Assembly: GCA_021234155.1 (NCBI GenBank)
Contig: JAJEKV010000002.1
Location: forward strand, 18,837,592-18,901,591
DNA length: 64,000 nt
Direction: 5' to 3'
Origin: Isoetes taiwanensis
Lineage: Eukaryota > Streptophyta > Lycopodiopsida > Isoetales > Isoetaceae
Below are positions 8,638-64,000 of this stretch, in pieces. The notes under the pieces are model-generated. The model saw only the letters and a program-made list of their open reading frames with translations, did no database searches and was not told the origin of the DNA. Each line of letters starts with the position of its first letter. The stretch's first letter is position 1. A program made the position numbers and the translations under genes.

Positions 8638-9130
8638 TCACGGTCCGTGCATTGAAATCTCCAAGAAGGGCGACCCTACCCAACTGCTGATGCCGGGCCA
8701 GATGTCATCATATAGATCGACATACGGGTCCATCCTATCCGCATCGGGGTGGCTGCGATAGAAGGTGCTGTCTGCGTGAGGGAAATAACAGGCGGCCAGA
8801 AAAAGAGGGTTGCCACTGGTATTATGCACGAACCCGTGGCACCGGTTGTATCAATGTCTTCTGGAGGGTAACCAATGTGCCAAGGTTGTCCGTGTAGTAA
8901 AGAAACCCTCCACCATGACCCCGTATCCCTCACAATGTGTTGAAGACCGAGAAATGTTGGTAACCCGGCCGTCAGTGCTTTGTGTCCAAAGATGCTCCCA
9001 TGTCTCCATGAGGAAGATGAGATCCATACGGTACGCCCACGGAGTTGACTGCCCCTTACGCCAAGGGAAGCCTCGGCGGTTCCATGAGACCACCCCAGAC
9101 ACAATTCCTATTTGTCGGCCAGGGATGGTA
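8638..9130 (-). pseudogene. LINE copy B AP-like endonuclease, broken
   Basis: Minus-strand pieces match the copy C endonuclease: VVSWNRRGFPWRKG (WNCRGF-type first motif), DLIFLMETWEH (second motif with its catalytic Glu), GNPLFLAACYFPHADSTFYR and DADRMDPYVDLYDDI. A Cys to Arg change is seen in WNRRGF, and frames change several times. The family nicks target DNA to prime reverse transcription. Confidence 0.8.
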
Positions 9131-9679
9131 TCGCGCACTGAGTCCTGAGGGGGAGGACCAAAAAGCGAGAGGTGAGTGAGAAGTAGATGGAGCCGGGCGG
9201 CATGTAATGAGAGGGTGTGGGCCGCGAGGGAGCGGGAGTAGGAGCAGGAGAAGGGGCCGTGGTAGTAGAAGCGAAGCGGGGCAGCGTCACTGTGGTTGGG
9301 GCTGCGGGTTCTGCGGCGTAACGAAAGTGCTGTCGGAAAATGTGCATCCCGCGCGAACCAATCCTCGCGGCACCCCCGCATTGGCGAATGCCTCGACCGA
9401 CAAGCTCCCTGTCTGCGTGCCTCTGTTACGCGGGTGTGAGGTCGGTCCACATCACCGAGGGATGTCCCCTTCAACATCATACGGCGCAATATGGCATCAC
9501 CCTTTGTGCATCCGCAGGCAAGTGAATATGACAATCGCGGTCCGCGGCCGAGCTAGCGGAAACCCATCTTGCGACTTTCGAGAAATGTAGGCCCAGAATG
9601 TCATCCGTTCGGGAATGTGTGTTCCGGATGTTGTAGGTGAGGGACTCCTCCCCACTGCTTTGCTCACGGCATACCTCAA

Positions 9680-31512: not shown

Positions 31513-32248
31513 CTTCGTGAGAACGTAAGGTTATTCTGACATGACACACCGCATCGCAGGCCCAACAACTGCAAGACGCCAATCGGGTCACTTGGTCAAC
31601 CCGGAACAGCGGAAGCCGCAGCCCCGCCCCTACCACCATCATCACGCTGCGTCGCCACCAAAGCTGGGCAGGCCTCCAATGGACGCCGAGCTCTGTGGAC
31701 GCAGCAGCCGGACCCACAACCTCGTAGTTCGGGCCTCACCGGAAGAGCCGGAGAGAATCTCACCCTAAGATACACACACGTATTCTTGGGGTATGACGCT
31801 TTCGCCCAGATCTGTTCAGTTATCGACCAGCCCGGTGGGGGTCCAGCCGCCTGTGCCGAAGTCGTGGTGTTCACGGTTGCATATGCACGAAGTTCGAGAG
31901 GCCATACCGCGACAGGCAAGTTCGGTTGAAGGGCACATCTCTGTATGTGAGCCGAGATCTTACTCCAGTGCAACAGGAGGTATGTAGGAGGGAGTTCGCC
32001 AGGGTCAGGGACGCCCGCAGTCGACCAAATGCTTTGCCGCACTGCCGCCCAAATGCTACCCCCGCGCCTCCCTCCCGATCCTCCACAACCGCCCCTCACA
32101 ACTCCGGTTCCTGCTCCTTTCCAGCCAAATGCTGTCCCCTGGCCGCCTCAAAGTTGCTTGTCCGGAAGTCGCCCCCAGAATCCCGATGCCTTGCCGCAGT
32201 CCATCGGTGACACACACTACACAAGCATCTCCGACCGCTCAATAGGAA

Positions 32249-33060
32249 TTGTGCCTCCGGGTGGTGGTCTGGAACTGTCGGGGTTTCCTGTGGCAGAAGG
32301 GTGATAGCCTCAATTCAGTAGCTGTGGACATGGACCTCATCTTCCTCATGGAGACATGGGAACACCCAGACCCACAGTGCCCGTCCGCCCGGTACCAGCA
32401 TTTTTCGGGTTCAATGGTTGTACAGGAAGACGTGGGAACGGTGGGGTACTACCGGGTAGCCTTGACACATTTGGTTTCCCTCCAGAAGACCGACAGACAT
32501 AACCGGTACTTGTGGATCCGAGTGCACCACCCTGGCGGAGATCCTCTCTTCCTAGCTGCTTGCTACTTTCCCCATGCAGAGAGCCCCTTCTATCACAGCC
32601 ACCCGGAGGTGAACAGGATGGACCCGTATGTCGATCTATATGATGACATACAACAGCACAAGCGGATGGGCAGAGTCATGCTCCTTGGAGACTTCAATGC
32701 ACGGACAGTGGTGGAACAGGCCATGCGGCTGGACCCCCTCGCGGATGACGTGCTGTTGTTGCGTCCCGCAGAGGCAGCTTGCATACGGCACTCAGATGAC
32801 AGTCAGGTTACCCGCTTCGGCAAACAATTGCTCCTGATGTGCGGTATCTTTGACCTGCTCATATGCAATGGCCTACCACAATGGCCCTCTTCCCACGGGT
32901 ATACTTGCGCATTGGGACAATCACGGCGGAACTAGTGTCGTGGATTATGTCATAGTGGATGCACAGATGTACACCTTGTTAGCCATTTTCATGTCGGCAC
33001 GGACAGTCGGGACGAGGAGGCCGACTCAGATCACCTCCCACTCTATGTGAAGATGGCACG
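32249..33060 (+). pseudogene. LINE copy C AP-like endonuclease
   Basis: Opens VVVWNCRGFLWQKG (first motif with Asn), then DLIFLMETWEH (catalytic Glu), FLAACYFPHAE, RMDPYVDLYDDI and MLLGDFNAR (GDFNA motif, catalytic Asp and Asn). The frame stops at 32,935. After a shift GGTSVVDYVIVDAQ follows, and then in another frame SDHLPLYVKMARP near 33,022-33,060 gives the final SDH motif. All catalytic motifs of the family are thus present but split over three frames. Confidence 0.85.
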
Positions 33061-58084: not shown

Positions 58085-58215
58085 ATTTTCTCCACGGAAG
58101 GGTTGTTTTTCCAACACTTTGGCGTACGTATATAGGGGTGTTTCTTTGCACCTTAAGCACGCAGGTGGCATATACTGATGTGATAAAGGTGAATCCCCTG
58201 GGTCTAGTGGCTCCA
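58085..58215 (-). repeat. Dispersed repeat R3, copy 3
   Basis: Minus strand: ggggattcacctttatcac, gccacctgcgtgcttaaggt, gaaacacccctatatacgta. Same block order as the copies at 36.6 and 53.4 kb. Confidence 0.55.
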
Positions 58216-58229
58216 CGGGCGGCTAGAAA

Positions 58230-58950
58230 ATCGTGGCGACACACAATTCGTACCCGACTGAATCCCCAAAAACAAGAGCCAGGCCGACACCTGCGAGAGG
58301 CAGGTCGACACCATTGCCCCAGGACGGCGAACAGTCATCTCAGAACTAGAACAAACAAGGGGAATCCGACTGTTTAATTAAAAAAAAGCATTGCAATGGT
58401 CCCTGCGAATGTTAACGCGATGTGATTTCTGCCTAGTGCTCTGAATGTCAAAGGGAAGAAATTCAACCAAGCGCGGATAAATGGCAGGAAACAAGATTGA
58501 GTATTAAACGGGAGCAAATCATCGAAACGAGAGCAAAAGGAATATTCCTCAAAGATTCCCTTTTTTTTACAAAAAGGGGGGTAAAATGAGGTTAAAAAAA
58601 AAAGATGCATGAAATTCTATTTTGATCCCCCCCCCCAAATGACTAATTTTTTTGTGCAACGAAAGAATTGACTTTTTTAAAGTGTCACTTTTCTTAGCAA
58701 ATAGAATGTTCTTGAAGTATGTTTTACAAGAGAAACTCTAATTTCAGAGGATAAAATATTTAACAAAAAATTGAAGTAAGTCTGTAACTGAAACTGTAGT
58801 ATTCTCAAAATTTGAAGATAGAATCTTCATATTCACATGCAAAATTTACAGTTTTTTTCTAAGACTCAGTTATGTACAGATGAGTGATGAGAGAGGGATC
58901 CAGGACGTCATCATATTCATTTATGCCATCCTCATCACCTTCACTTCTTT
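58230..58950. other. No gene seen
   Basis: Contains homopolymers (A8 near 58,380, C10 near 58,627). It could hold the 3' end of the transposase-like gene that follows, but no ORF continues here. Confidence 0.4.
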
Positions 58951-58955
58951 CACTG

Positions 58956-61900
58956 TCACTCGAGGAAGTGCTTGAGATTATCACTATCAACAGATGGTGA
59001 AGCATTGCCACCACCTTCTTCATCCTCTTCTTCGTAATTACAAGCTTTTTTAAGCAAATTGATAGTCCTCTGGCATAGACGATTGTCAGATTTCAATTTA
59101 AAATCATAGCACAATATAGTCACGTCATTAAGGTTCAGCTCATCCCTACAACCCACCTTCTTAGACTTTCTCTCTTTTTCCTTGGCTTCTCATTTCTCTC
59201 TCATATCTACCTTCAAAAGCATTTTCTGAGCGTGTTGCAAGCCAATGGATCTTGAGTATAGTGACTAAGCCTTCCTCCTTGACTGTGTCAAGCACTTTTG
59301 CTATCCAGAAAGGTTGACCTTTGTCATCCTCCTCAGTTGGAAGAGCAATTAGAATACCTTTGGTAATTTCTGTGATATTACCTTGAGGCTCATTCCTGCA
59401 TCTTGGTCCGAGGTACGTGACTCGATCCTCGTCTTCTTCTACTGCAGGTGCTAATGTAGCATTGCTTGGACCTGTTTGGTGCTGGGGTTGATGGAAGGTG
59501 TTAGGCCATTGAAATAGTTCTTGCAACTGTCTTAGAGCTATGTTTTGTACAACAATTTTCTGTTCGAGAAAGAAATTACTCCACCACATCCGATCTTCTT
59601 CTAAGAAGTACTTAAAGCCTGAGGAAATTCCATTTTCAATGGCTTTTAAGGATGACACTGGGGTACTTTTCTTTTGCTTGGACTTCTTAGGATTTTTGAG
59701 AGGAAGTTGCTCAGCACGTTCTATGAAGGAAGTGTCTGGAATATATTTAAGGAAGCGTAATCCCTCTGGTGGACTCCAGTCCTTAGTTGTGGTATACTTC
59801 TTCCCCTGTAAGAAAGCTTTGGCCATCCTTCAAGTAGAACTTGATGTGATGTTGGAAGGTGAGATCATTCAACTTGTTCACAGCTTGTTCTCTGTCTGAA
59901 CGTTGAGAGAAAACAAACTCTCTGAAATCAGCAGTCTCTTTAAGAAGATCGATCACTGGAGTGGGAGTGTAAGAATCTTCAATAATTCGAACTAAAGTAG
60001 GAAGAGAAAAAACCTTCTTCCTTCTAAGGTGCACAGAAAATCTGCTGAACACTTGGTCAATCTGATCATGAGTGTGGCCTACAAGTAAGAAACCGAGCTT
60101 CACTTTTCTAAAGATCCCTAGCTCCACTAACATGGCACAGTAAGCAAAGAGTGTTTGATTCTTGTTCTCCCTTGTAGTATTGTCAAGTTGCAGGTAAAGC
60201 ACTGGTGGTAACTGCTCTTGCTCGCACAGGACCTTGTTAAGAATTATAATTGTGAGGTTCGGGTCATCATGCAAGTTTGGATACGTCAAAAATACTTTGC
60301 ACTTTAGACTTCCTTTGAAGACCATAGCTCCTACAAGGTGACCTTAACAAAACATTCCTCTGGCACATCTTTAGGAATGTTCAAGGAATGGGGTAGAGTA
60401 TTTTTTTTTTTGATCCATTCCATCAATCACAACAGACATATATTGCAATAGACATTCAAGAGCTTTTTTTCTGTGCTTGGTCTCTCTGCTGCTTGTTGTT
60501 CACGATGTCTGGCAAGGTTCTGTTGCACAATATCTGTAAAAATAATCAAGTCAAAGCATTTTCTTTAAAATAAGTGAGAGATTGGAGAGCATGAGCTTAC
60601 TTCTTTCGACCTCTGTCTTTGCAGTTTCTCGTTGACTCTTTAATTCTGCACACCTTGAGCAAACAGACATTCTATGTCTCCTGGGAATTTTCACAAGACC
60701 GAATTCACTTTTCCACAGTCTGGTGAAGTGTGAGTAAGAGATGTGCTGAAGCTGAGTGCAAGTCTCTGTGTACTCATTAAAAACATCTTTTTTGGTGATG
60801 TTATCAGTTAAATGATACATGTTGCTGTTAGGCAGCTTCTCACATGTTTCTCTGAAATATTTCTCCATCCATGACACAGCAGCAAGAGCATGCATGGTTA
60901 CAATTCTTCTTGGACCACAATGATCATCAATTGCTGGATTTTTGTCCAGTCTTTTGTGTATTCTAGACATTCTGGTGGACCCTAAACGGTGGACAACCAT
61001 AAAGCATTTCTGGCAAACTTCTTCACGGTTAATGTAGTGCAAGAAGGTGTTGCGGTCTGGTCTTACATGATAGGCCAAGTAGGCATTCTGATCAGCCAAT
61101 ATCATTGAACTGTAGTTGTCTCTAATTGCTCATAACTCAGACATGTTAAATTTGTTGATGCAACCCAATGAGCAGCATTTACTTCTTAAAAGTCTTCTCA
61201 TTTTATGCGCGTCCATAAGGTTTCTTCTTCTTACAGAGGAGCATGCTCTCAAACCATAATCCACCTTGAATTTCTTGGTGGACTGGCTAGAGAATGTGTA
61301 ATCTCGTTGCACCTCGTTGGTGTCTTCATCTTCTGAAGAGAGTTCTACTCTGGGGGTGACCTCCTCTACCTCTAGTGGTGTGCTTGTAGAGGAGAACAAA
61401 CCACGTGAAGCTGTACCCGAATAAGGCAGAGGTACAGTGTTGAATGAAGGAGATGAGCCACCATATGATGTGCCAGCGAATGTTGTTGCAGCTTCTTCAC
61501 AAGGAGTTCGTTCAAACATGTCTCAAAGAGCCGACTGAAATTCTGCAAACCCATACGTCACCACGGTTGTGTGAAGAGGAGTAGATGCTGCAAGGTCGTC
61601 TTCATTTGTAGTGAAATCGTGGTGGGAAAAGCGATGGAGAATCTCGCAGTCTTCGGAACGTGCTGTATTCCTTGCTTGTGTAAGTAAAGAAGGAGAAACT
61701 ACAAATGGCTAAGGTAGTATGTTTCGAAAAATTTGCTGAGGTCGAGCCTTTGTAGTGTCGGGGGATGGTACAAATGGTGATGGAAGATTGCTACGTGCAA
61801 CAGGTGAGGCTGTGAAAGGGTGGCAGCCAGTTTCCTACTGGACTTGGAGAGGGTTGGAAAGGTGGTGGCAGTCTACTAGTTACTGGACTCGGAGTGTCTT

Positions 61901-62026
61901 CGAGAAGCAAGAAAGACCTTGTCGAGTTAGGAGTTGAAGAAGCATCTCCGTCTTGTGTTCCATCTGAAGTAGAGGTACTTGGGCAAACAAAGGGTGGTGG
62001 AAGTTTGTTCACGAAGGGTTAACCAT
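58956..62026 (-). pseudogene. DUF7869-like, transposase-like protein, degraded
   Basis: Candidate start ATG 62,026-62,024. The N-terminus (to about 61,560) has repeats of the type LPPPFxPSPSP. Next come TYGFAEFQSAL, an in-frame TGA, MFERTPCEEAATTFAG (61,519), RSKCCSLGCINKFNMSEL, another in-frame TGA, and a Cys-rich segment with NREEVCQKCFMVVH and SVCSRCAELKSQ. After a 67-bp intron and a shift in an A run comes VVIDGMDQ (60,433-60,410); then, after another shift, LQLDNTTRENKNQTLF (Asp at 60,184) and LVGHTHDQIDQVFSRF (60,085-60,038). The C-terminus after a further shift has KDWSPPEGLRFL and an SH3-like GQPFWIAKVLDTV. These are hallmarks of the domain I know as DUF7869; Asp spacing suggests an RNase H-like DDE/D nuclease, which is inference. 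It diverges from the ParB-like gene. Confidence 0.7.
60534..60600 (-). other. Intron of the transposase-like gene
   Basis: Donor GTAAGC at 60,600 and acceptor ttatttttacag ending at 60,534, 67 bp. Splicing joins KTEVER to IVQQNLARHREQQAAERPST, which continues the family pattern, whereas reading through gives a stop soon after. Its length fits the short introns elsewhere in the window. Confidence 0.7.
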
Positions 62027-62086
62027 GTTAAACAATTGCAAAAAATTGTGGACTTATCAGTAACTCACAAGTCTGTTGGACTGATG

Positions 62087-62752
62087 ATATTCGAGAATAT
62101 AAATGCTATTCCGGAATACTATTTTGTGTGCAGCATTTGTTGTGTGTGTGCATAGATGCTATTCCAGAATACACTTGTCCAAAGTGTTTGGACAGACATA
62201 TTCTGCATCACATACAAAAACACAACTGACAGTGGCCTACCTTTAAAAAGGAAATTTGAGCGCCTCAGTTGCGTATTCCGCTTTCAGAGTTCTAGTCGCT
62301 AGCTCGAGCGCCTTCCGACCTATATTGATTTGCTGTATTCCGATTTACATAGCGAAAATAATGGACAGGTAAGCATATAAAGTACATAGTACGTTTTTAT
62401 TGTGTTTCCTGATTTACTTTTATAGGGCAAAGTGTATTCCGGAATACACTTTGCCCTTTAGGTGAAGTGAATTCCGGAATACACCTTGCCCTTCAGGCGA
62501 AGGGCAAAGTGTATTCCAGAATACACCTTGCCCTTCAGGCAAAGTGTAGAGTGTATTCCGGAATACACTTTGCCTGTCTTATTGAAAACGTTTGTTTTTT
62601 TAGCCTAAACATACCACTTCTTAGGTTAAACGGACCACTTTTTAGTCCAATTAAAGCATGAAAAATCGAGTTAGAGCGACAATGTTTTCGCTTGTTTTCA
62701 TGTCTTTTGCTGGCTTTTAGGGCAGAAGATTAGGAAATCTTATTCTGGAATA
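62087..62752. promoter_or_regulatory. Array of palindromic TATTCCRGAATA sites between divergent genes
   Basis: Sites: TATTCGAGAATA at about 62,088; TATTCCGGAATA at 62,107-62,118; TATTCCAGAATA at 62,160-62,171; half-sites near 62,267 and 62,334; TATTCCGGAATA at 62,435; attccggaat at 62,471; TATTCCAGAATA at 62,512; TATTCCGGAATA at 62,554; TATTCTGGAATA at 62,741. The one at 62,435 is the centre of a perfect 32-bp palindrome (62,425-62,456) with arms gggcaaagtgtattcc. Several carry the extension acaccttgccctt or acactttgcc. The array spans the shared upstream region and the first intron of the ParB-like gene; it looks like protein-binding sites. Confidence 0.75.
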
Positions 62753-64000
62753 CAGTTTTCGTCCCATTTGATATCTTAACATTGTTGTTTTAAACGTTTC
62801 AGTGGCAGGCAAGAAGGAAGCAAGAGGGCACCAAAAAAAAACTCTTAAGCTCAGGCGGCCACACCCAATGAAGCAGACCGCGGACATGGACGAGCCTGCG
62901 ATTTATGAAAACTTTCAAACGCAATGGTTCGTAACCAGGGGTGCAGGCGAAAAATACAGCACACTGATGTTTCTACATGTCTGCAAGAGTGCTGGGAACA
63001 AACGGTACGCGGACTCCGAGTTTCTTAACCTGGGGACAATAAAAGAGGTCTTCGAGGTTGCCGGACAAGGAGGTCAGGCAGGGAGGCTATCCTTCAAGAC
63101 CTCCCAGGGATTCATTGTCGTAGACATCGCAAGCTTCAGAATTATCAGTGTGCAACCACAGCTACTGTACAAATTCATTTCTCACTACCGGACCAAACGA
63201 AGCCTGTCTACAATAATTAGATAGGTTTGTTCTACTACGAGCGAGGACTTTCCTGTCAGTGAGTCCGAGCAATCAGATGGAGGAAGATCACAATCATCAC
63301 CTTCTGCTAGTACTTCTGGGAGGGAAACAGATGGAGGTTCCGAAGAAGAAGAAGCGGAAAACCCCCCAGAGCAGCCAATAAACTTAGCAGGCCAAGAGAC
63401 ACCATAGCCGCTAAGGAACCAAAGAAGCGGAAAGTACAACAGCTGGAAATTGCAGAAATCCCGGAGGAAAGCTCAAAAAAACAAAAGGGAAAAGGAAAAG
63501 CTCCCGGGGTAGTAATAAAAGAAAAGAAGGTTGATAAGACCTCCGAAAGAATGGAGGTAATAAACAGAGAGAAATTTGTACAAGGGGTGATCTATCTTCC
63601 TGTGACTTGCATGAAGCTGCCCCCGAAGAATGAAGCTGGTGAAAGGCCGCTTCAGGTTCGAAAAATTTATGCCGACCACTTAAGGAACTTGAAGGACCGA
63701 ATTAGGAGCAATCCAAATGCTCATGTGGCCCCAATAGTTGTCCTTGTTGACAGGGAGCAATGCAAAACCCCCCAGGACTATGACAGAGAAAATGCAGAAA
63801 TATACACTCACTACGTCTTGGGAGGAAATCATAGCTTTAAGGCAAGAAGGTAGCTGTACAAAGAAAAGAATAACCCCAGGTACCTCTCCGTCCTGTGCGC
63901 CGTTTACTGTGGTCTTACCGACGAAGAAGCAAAAATCATTGCCAATACCCATAATGCTGACAACGAGTACAAACTAAAGATGAGCTTCGTCGACAAGATC
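62361..64000 (+). pseudogene. ParB/sulfiredoxin-like domain protein, degraded, runs off window
   Basis: Probable first exon ATGGACAG (62,361-62,368) with donor GTAAGC, then a 434-bp intron ending ttttaaacgtttcag (62,802). Exon 2 begins SGRQEGSKRAPKK, basic, but a 9-A tract (62,832-62,840) is one base out of frame. The main frame runs to TAG at 63,222 with a middle domain (FLHVCKSAGNKRYADSEFLN). After that TAG the frame continues acidic and Ser-rich, then a shift leads to EPKKRKVQQ (63,416-63,442), an SV40-type nuclear signal. From 63,551 comes INREKFVQGVIYLPVTCMKL then the ParB/Srx-like signature YVLGGNHSFKARR, an in-frame TAG at 63,851, and LYKEKNNPRYLSVLCAVYCG, EEAKIIANTHNADNEYKL to the window end. 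The GGNHSFKA motif resembles the GxHRxxA loop of ParB/sulfiredoxin folds. Function is unknown. Confidence 0.6.

Follow-up and report, generated by a model that had tools for sequence, protein, structure and literature searches.

A probable remnant of a two-gene DNA transposon in Isoetes taiwanensis, with a DUF7869 transposase gene and a divergent ParB-like partner gene

Results and discussion

Analysis of a 64,000-nucleotide stretch of Isoetes taiwanensis DNA (contig JAJEKV010000002.1, positions 18,837,592 to 18,901,591 of the forward strand; hereafter the window) revealed what is very probably a decayed copy of a land-plant DNA transposon of the cut-and-paste type with two genes. The element would pair a DDD (three-aspartate) transposase with a BAH-like end and a divergently transcribed ParB-methyltransferase gene, whose product looks able, judging from its sequence, to bind DNA and to mark it chemically. 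An earlier sequence-only reading had proposed that the two genes form a DNA transposon, or a giant-element cassette, that carries its own binding sites. The transposon itself was supported by related copies with the same gene pair, inverted ends and one target-site duplication, while the binding role of the palindromes is one that we infer.

The transposase gene

The transposase gene extends on the minus strand from the likely first ATG at 62026 to the likely stop, a TAG ending at 58859, and thus runs past the boundary at 58956 first assigned to it. A piece of this gene matched the Pfam family DUF7869 (PF25273) with an E value of 2.9e-49 and a score of 167.7 bits, above the cut-off of 26, making it a clear member of a family whose function Pfam gives as unknown. 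The Cys-rich region and acidic motifs that the sequence-only reading had described were corroborated, the Cys and acidic columns being conserved in an alignment of 57 relatives. The DUF7869 domain (59822..60340, minus strand) contains the second and third conserved Asp (QLDN... and VGHTHDQID...) of the predicted RNase H-like DDD core. In the structure model of a relative, P0018, fold comparison revealed a DDE-transposase-like RNase H core with a conserved D..D..D pattern; 42 residues separated the second and third Asp, and no DxxH motif occurred in that span. The conserved columns and this model together placed three acidic residues of an RNase H-like core where a DDE/D transposase has them, and the three Asp are the putative catalytic triad. 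On the basis of a weak PHROG match (E 0.021), the GHTH motif had been read as that of a metallophosphoesterase; this was discarded once the RNase H-like model had been obtained. Scans of PHROGs and NCBIfam gave no family better than E 0.02, a PDB sequence search with DUF7869 returned xylanase rows only (E ≥ 0.08), and a BFVD fold search yielded nothing at E ≤ 0.001.

Residues 681-797 of the P0018 model matched BAH folds. The corresponding C-terminal stretch of the window gene, which matches the relative's BAH-like-folding part (59190..59370, minus strand), aligned with the transposase end of a fern-type copy (L005, see below) at 32% over 244 columns. The C-terminus thus looks BAH-like by modelled fold, and not SH3-like as had been supposed. 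The gene is interrupted by an in-frame TGA (61130-61132) and at least four frameshifts. The sequence also suggests a probable intron (GTAAGC...TTTACAG, 60534..60600, minus strand), and the frame that follows it aligned with the start of the closest relative, P0001.

The partner gene

The two genes diverge from ATGs at 62026 (minus) and 62361 (plus) with a gap of 335 bp, just as the sequence-only reading had stated. The plus-strand gene (62361..64000), recognized from its open reading frames (ORFs) and homology, is cut by the window end, and only its front half is present; position 64000 lies before any methyltransferase part. Two TAG codons (63222-63224 and 63851-63853) interrupt it, as do at least two frameshifts. 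The two multi-domain genes first described are therefore both real, but both are broken by stops and frameshifts. Eight coding bases after the plus-strand ATG the sequence reads GTAAGC, so there is probably a tiny first exon (62361-62368), followed by a 5' intron to about 62802. A PKKRKV motif at 63419..63436 (plus strand), presumably nuclear-localisation-like, corresponds to the nuclear signal reported earlier.

The ParB-like region, with a GGNHS motif, lies at 63593..64000 on the plus strand. It shares homology with the ParB-like portion of the ParB-methyltransferases of the fern-type copies described below (42% over 151 aa), and one comparison with a probable fern contig protein gave 41% over 140 aa (E 3e-37 as a single comparison, one stop read as Q). 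The N-terminal part of the gene showed no recognizable relation to the fern-type proteins. The ParB/sulfiredoxin-like domain claimed for this gene was upheld by this homology, but not by Pfam, which offered only DUF6551 below its cut-off (E 0.002; 18.1 bits against 26.8). Curated ParB profiles did not match the window piece, and the fern-type proteins did no better. Fold search of a poor-quality model of the piece returned rows at E ≥ 0.68 only. When the ParB gene alone was compared with 5.8 billion proteins, none of 2197 candidates reached E ≤ 1e-3 and none of 3348 longer candidates from the same proteins reached E ≤ 10, word seeding and gene decay limiting the sensitivity of both searches. 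A PDB sequence search gave rows at E ≥ 0.33 only with the ParB query and none with a ParB profile; phages and plasmids gave rows at E ≥ 0.8 only.

Fern-type copies preserve the pair

Scanning the transposase alignment against one genome per prokaryotic species yielded 17 loci (L001-L017). Eight of them (L001-L008, CAKZGI01 contigs) all came from one cyanobacterial metagenome-assembled genome (MAG) named uncultured Trichormus, and were 53-58% identical to the Ceratopteris query. Because of this identity, the introns in the partner gene and the location of one copy in a Gypsy-like element, we took these loci as fern DNA, apparently nuclear and probably from the host of the Azolla cyanobiont, that had been binned in the cyanobacterial MAG, which would thus hold at least eight such contigs.

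A divergent ParB-like ORF stood beside the transposase in all five contigs that reached far enough (L003-L006 and L008); L001, L002 and L007 had under 860 bp upstream, too short to show a partner. Relatives of the two genes are therefore neighbours elsewhere too, an adjacency on which the sequence-only reading had made itself depend. The ParB-like ORF was open in L003-L006 (555-575 aa) and shortened to 271 aa in L008. Downstream of it, L005, L006 and L008 contained exons with DIPYG and then LDLFSGT, the DIPYG exon of L005 carrying a frame change; the L003 and L004 contigs had room for the DIPYG exon only. The spliced L006 product matched the N6/N4 DNA methyltransferase family (PF01555) with E 2.9e-17 and 63.8 bits against a cut-off of 26.7, and an L008 exon scored 30.4 bits against the same cut-off. 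The nearest PDB sequences to the L006 methyltransferase part were CcrM and DpnA (E 4.3e-9 and 6.2e-6), and DIPYG precedes LDLFSGTG in L006 in the same order as in the CcrM alignment. CcrM and DpnA are bacterial, whereas the methyltransferase here is fused to a ParB-like part in a eukaryotic transposon. The L006 methyltransferase half also matched many phage methyltransferases (294 of 50,697 records at E ≤ 0.01), the best listed having E 7e-8.

The other nine loci (L009-L017), several with under 2 kb upstream, gave no match to the ParB or methyltransferase queries, and a Pfam scan of 10 ORFs from seven of them found no methyltransferase. One 8492-bp contig that carries a DUF7869 gene (L013 = L014) occurred in identical form in two MAGs of different phyla, Planctomycetia and Flavobacteriaceae, and is probably eukaryotic contamination. 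In a MAG labelled Paceibacterota, L012:1052-6568 formed one 1839-aa open frame with a partial DUF7869 domain.

Element ends and selection

Both inverted ends were present in L006 (26 of 33 positions alike), L008 (31 of 33) and L005 (28 of 35), giving complete copies of 7724, 6044 and about 7806 bp, the last uncertain by one base. Ten ends from seven fern-type loci could be aligned. L006 is inserted in a Gypsy-like element, and excision of L006 together with one AACA restored a continuous reading frame. This AACA was the 4-bp target-site duplication found in one of the three complete copies; L008 (GTAA/CATA) and L005 had no target duplication at their ends.

The coding sequence of the fern-type relatives is under purifying selection. 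The ratio of nonsynonymous to synonymous divergence (dN/dS) was 0.06-0.13 in the 14 of 31 pairs in which it could be computed (13 of 21 transposase and 1 of 10 ParB pairs), with synonymous divergence (dS) above 1.5 in 12 of these 14; the remaining pairs were saturated at synonymous sites. The transposase pairs exclude L008, in which this gene is broken.

When the fern-type end served as query in a longer search for the ends of the window copy, just two matches appeared, each with 6 edits; one fell in the transposase gene and the other in the palindrome array. A 13-base match (AACACTTTGGCGT) at 58113-58125, about 730 bp beyond the stop of the transposase gene, is in the right orientation and differs from the fern-type inverted end by two mismatches. 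It was not listed as part of the element, because by our estimate chance alone would give about one match of this quality over both strands of 64 kb. In L005, direct and inverted repeats that resemble one another fill about 4.6 kb (L005:1-4641) right beside the left end of the transposon; at about 168-300 there is a near-copy of the left flank that lacks the insert.

Relatives of the transposase

A protein search with the window transposase gave 367 relatives at E ≤ 1e-3, of which 120 were listed. Among the matches listed, the closest, P0001, had 76% identity across 59% of the query, and the named organisms were ferns (Ceratopteris, Adiantum), the liverwort Riccia sorocarpa, molluscs, echinoderms, amphioxus and anthozoans; the Gb_ label of P0106 suggests Ginkgo. 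In a tree built from the window, 24 of the listed relatives and four fern-type loci (29 rows), the named animals were separated, with full support, from the group holding all named plants. The window and P0001 formed a lineage separate from the Azolla/Ceratopteris lineage and from Riccia; their mutual order was unsupported, and 10 of the 26 inner branches were open. The ParB pair is present in both lineages with a known neighbourhood, that of the window and P0001 and that of Azolla and Ceratopteris.

Relation to known transposons

Sola transposases have three Asp and produce 4-bp target duplications. The element described here shows three conserved Asp, and a 4-bp duplication in one of three complete fern-type copies, and fits Sola as far as a comparison by description goes. 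The exclusion of Sola in the sequence-only reading was not supported. The Sola1-1_Ec32 element of Ectocarpus (21.5 kb) carries a 1104-aa ParB-like and N4C/N6A methyltransferase gene transcribed opposite its transposase (PMC12477816, Genome Biology 2025). Because this element is in print, the combination of transposase and ParB-methyltransferase is already known, and the word "undescribed" in the sequence-only reading had to be given up. That paper also cites cases from green and red algae and proposes that ParB-methyltransferase proteins bind to the transposon encoding them and modify it. The likeness concerns the gene arrangement within one DNA transposon. The Ectocarpus element differs in its host, a brown alga, and in its length, as against 6.0-7.8 kb in the complete fern-type copies, and the available text on it mentions no palindrome arrays.

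It is somewhat more likely than not that we are dealing with an ordinary Sola1, in which case DUF7869 is simply what Pfam calls the Sola1 transposase, the ParB-methyltransferase gene is its described accessory gene, and only the host group is new. This is compatible with a two-gene transposon and is a question of filing. Two further sources agree with it: Sola1 is listed for Physcomitrella among land plants (PMC9033089), and Sola2 is described as making duplications of 4 bp (PMC3627910). However, only one 4-bp duplication was seen, the lengths disagree, and no row was named Physcomitrella among the 120 of 367 DUF7869 matches listed, many of which are unnamed.

The literature searched, with subscription papers mostly outside the search, showed no land-plant case of a transposon with a ParB-methyltransferase among the matches listed, and the name DUF7869 appeared in none of 5.39 million papers. 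What looks new is that the element occurs in land plants and that its palindrome array is conserved in position. The transposase domain of Mariner Mos1 and Metnase had about 10% identity to the transposase here and lacks the BAH-like end; mariner elements make 2-bp TA duplications, as opposed to the one of 4 bp here, and the element is not a member. Dada elements are likewise DNA transposons with introns and Cys motifs, but they combine a distant Glu (D567, D635, E811) with a DxxH motif and make duplications of 6-7 bp (PMC3706591). Membership in Dada was rejected: P0018 had no DxxH after the second Asp, the L006 duplication was 4 bp, and no distant Glu was seen.

Palindromes between the genes

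With up to two mismatches, GTATTCCGGAATAC occurred seven times in the window, every copy at 62106-62753, against a mean of 0.10 and a maximum of 2 in 100 shuffles. The seven sit between and inside the 5' ends of both genes, as the sequence-only reading had noticed, but are 18 bp or more in length, not 12. Single copies lie at 62106..62119 (CTATTCCGGAATAC), 62159..62172 (CTATTCCAGAATAC) and 62740..62753 (TTATTCTGGAATAC). The main array (62421..62588) consists of four GTATTCCGGAATAC-like cores, spaced 35, 42 and 42 bp, inside longer inverted repeats, and given the probable tiny first exon it would lie within the 5' intron of the partner gene. Under a looser definition (10-base arms, one mismatch), the 1338-bp intergenic stretch held 4 palindromes and the remaining 62662 bp held 21.

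Counted as 10-base arms with up to one mismatch, palindromes numbered 3-13 in seven of the eight fern-type copies in the stretch that separates the genes or lies immediately upstream of the transposase (shuffle means 0.06-0.32), and 0-5 per locus outside the transposase-upstream region. L005 had fewer inside that region (3) than outside it (5, in 14.6 kb), and the upstream region of L008, only 161 bp long, had none. The core GTCGATGC/GCATCGAC occurred in six copies and was confined to the transposase-upstream region save for one match in L002; the L001 palindrome was a related CCGATGC form. The core thus differs between the window (TATTCCGGAATA) and the fern-type copies (GTCGATGC...GCATCGAC), while its position is conserved. 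A kept position with a changing sequence would be expected if site and binder co-evolve. The palindromes are candidate binding sites, and GTCGATGCNNNGCATCGAC is a candidate site for the fern-type ParB-like part.

They might instead be an operator or promoter element that the transposase or a host factor binds for self-regulation, the ParB-like protein then not binding them, a reading we regard as credible but less likely than not. Their location in a shared upstream region or 5' intron would suit this, as would the change of core at a constant position. The conserved position beside a ParB-like gene favours ParB binding, as does the fact that bacterial ParB sites are 16-bp palindromes, though neither amounts to a test.

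Origin other than by transposition

It is very improbable that two separate host genes or unrelated elements are adjacent by chance. The decay of the window copy and the nine loci in which no partner was found speak for such a chance neighbourhood. The divergent arrangement nonetheless recurred in every informative fern-type copy, three times within common inverted ends, and many copies that differ in sequence occur in one genome (Riccia sorocarpa, 40 of the 120 matches listed by hand count); the inverted ends common to both genes already contradict chance adjacency. A fragment of a giant-virus-derived insertion is equally hard to credit: giant viruses do carry ParB-like and methyltransferase genes, but no relative emerged when IMG/VR was scanned by pattern for DUF7869 and ParB, the complete fern-type copies are bounded by inverted repeats after 6.0-7.8 kb, and introns are present.

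Other features of the window

Two GC-rich blocks (about 0.55-0.58) at 8851-9552 and 32246-32935 contain similar ORFs (VVSWNRRGFPW and VVWNCRGFLW), which look like endonucleases of L1-type long interspersed nuclear elements. At 1134-1806, tandem arrays of GTTGATTGCCTGTTGCAAAGTCC-like units overlap one another and remain open across one 302-aa frame.

Proposed mechanism and significance

In the proposed mechanism, the transposase would cut and paste the element via its inverted ends, and the BAH-like end may bias insertion toward certain chromatin. The ParB-like part may bind the palindromes and steer the methyltransferase to the promoter region or body of the element, where methylation would protect or regulate it. 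Bacterial ParB spreads along DNA from its loading site. By analogy, the ParB-like protein might load at a parS-like array in the promoter or 5' intron that the genes share, spread and methylate adenines, so that the element evades host silencing or times its transposition; palindromes and ParB-like parts would then co-evolve by lineage, and the BAH end would read host chromatin. We offer this self-marking scheme tentatively and think it rather unlikely in full.

What would chiefly interest specialists is that the element occurs in land plants, that it has palindrome arrays and that its transposase has a BAH-like end. DUF7869, a large plant and animal family of unknown function, can now be seen as a likely family of DDD transposases whose end would read chromatin. 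Functional DNA adenine methylation in complex plants, and its writer, are debated; transposon-borne ParB-methyltransferases that are under selection and lie beside candidate recruiter sites in ferns would offer a concrete writer of adenine methylation together with its target.

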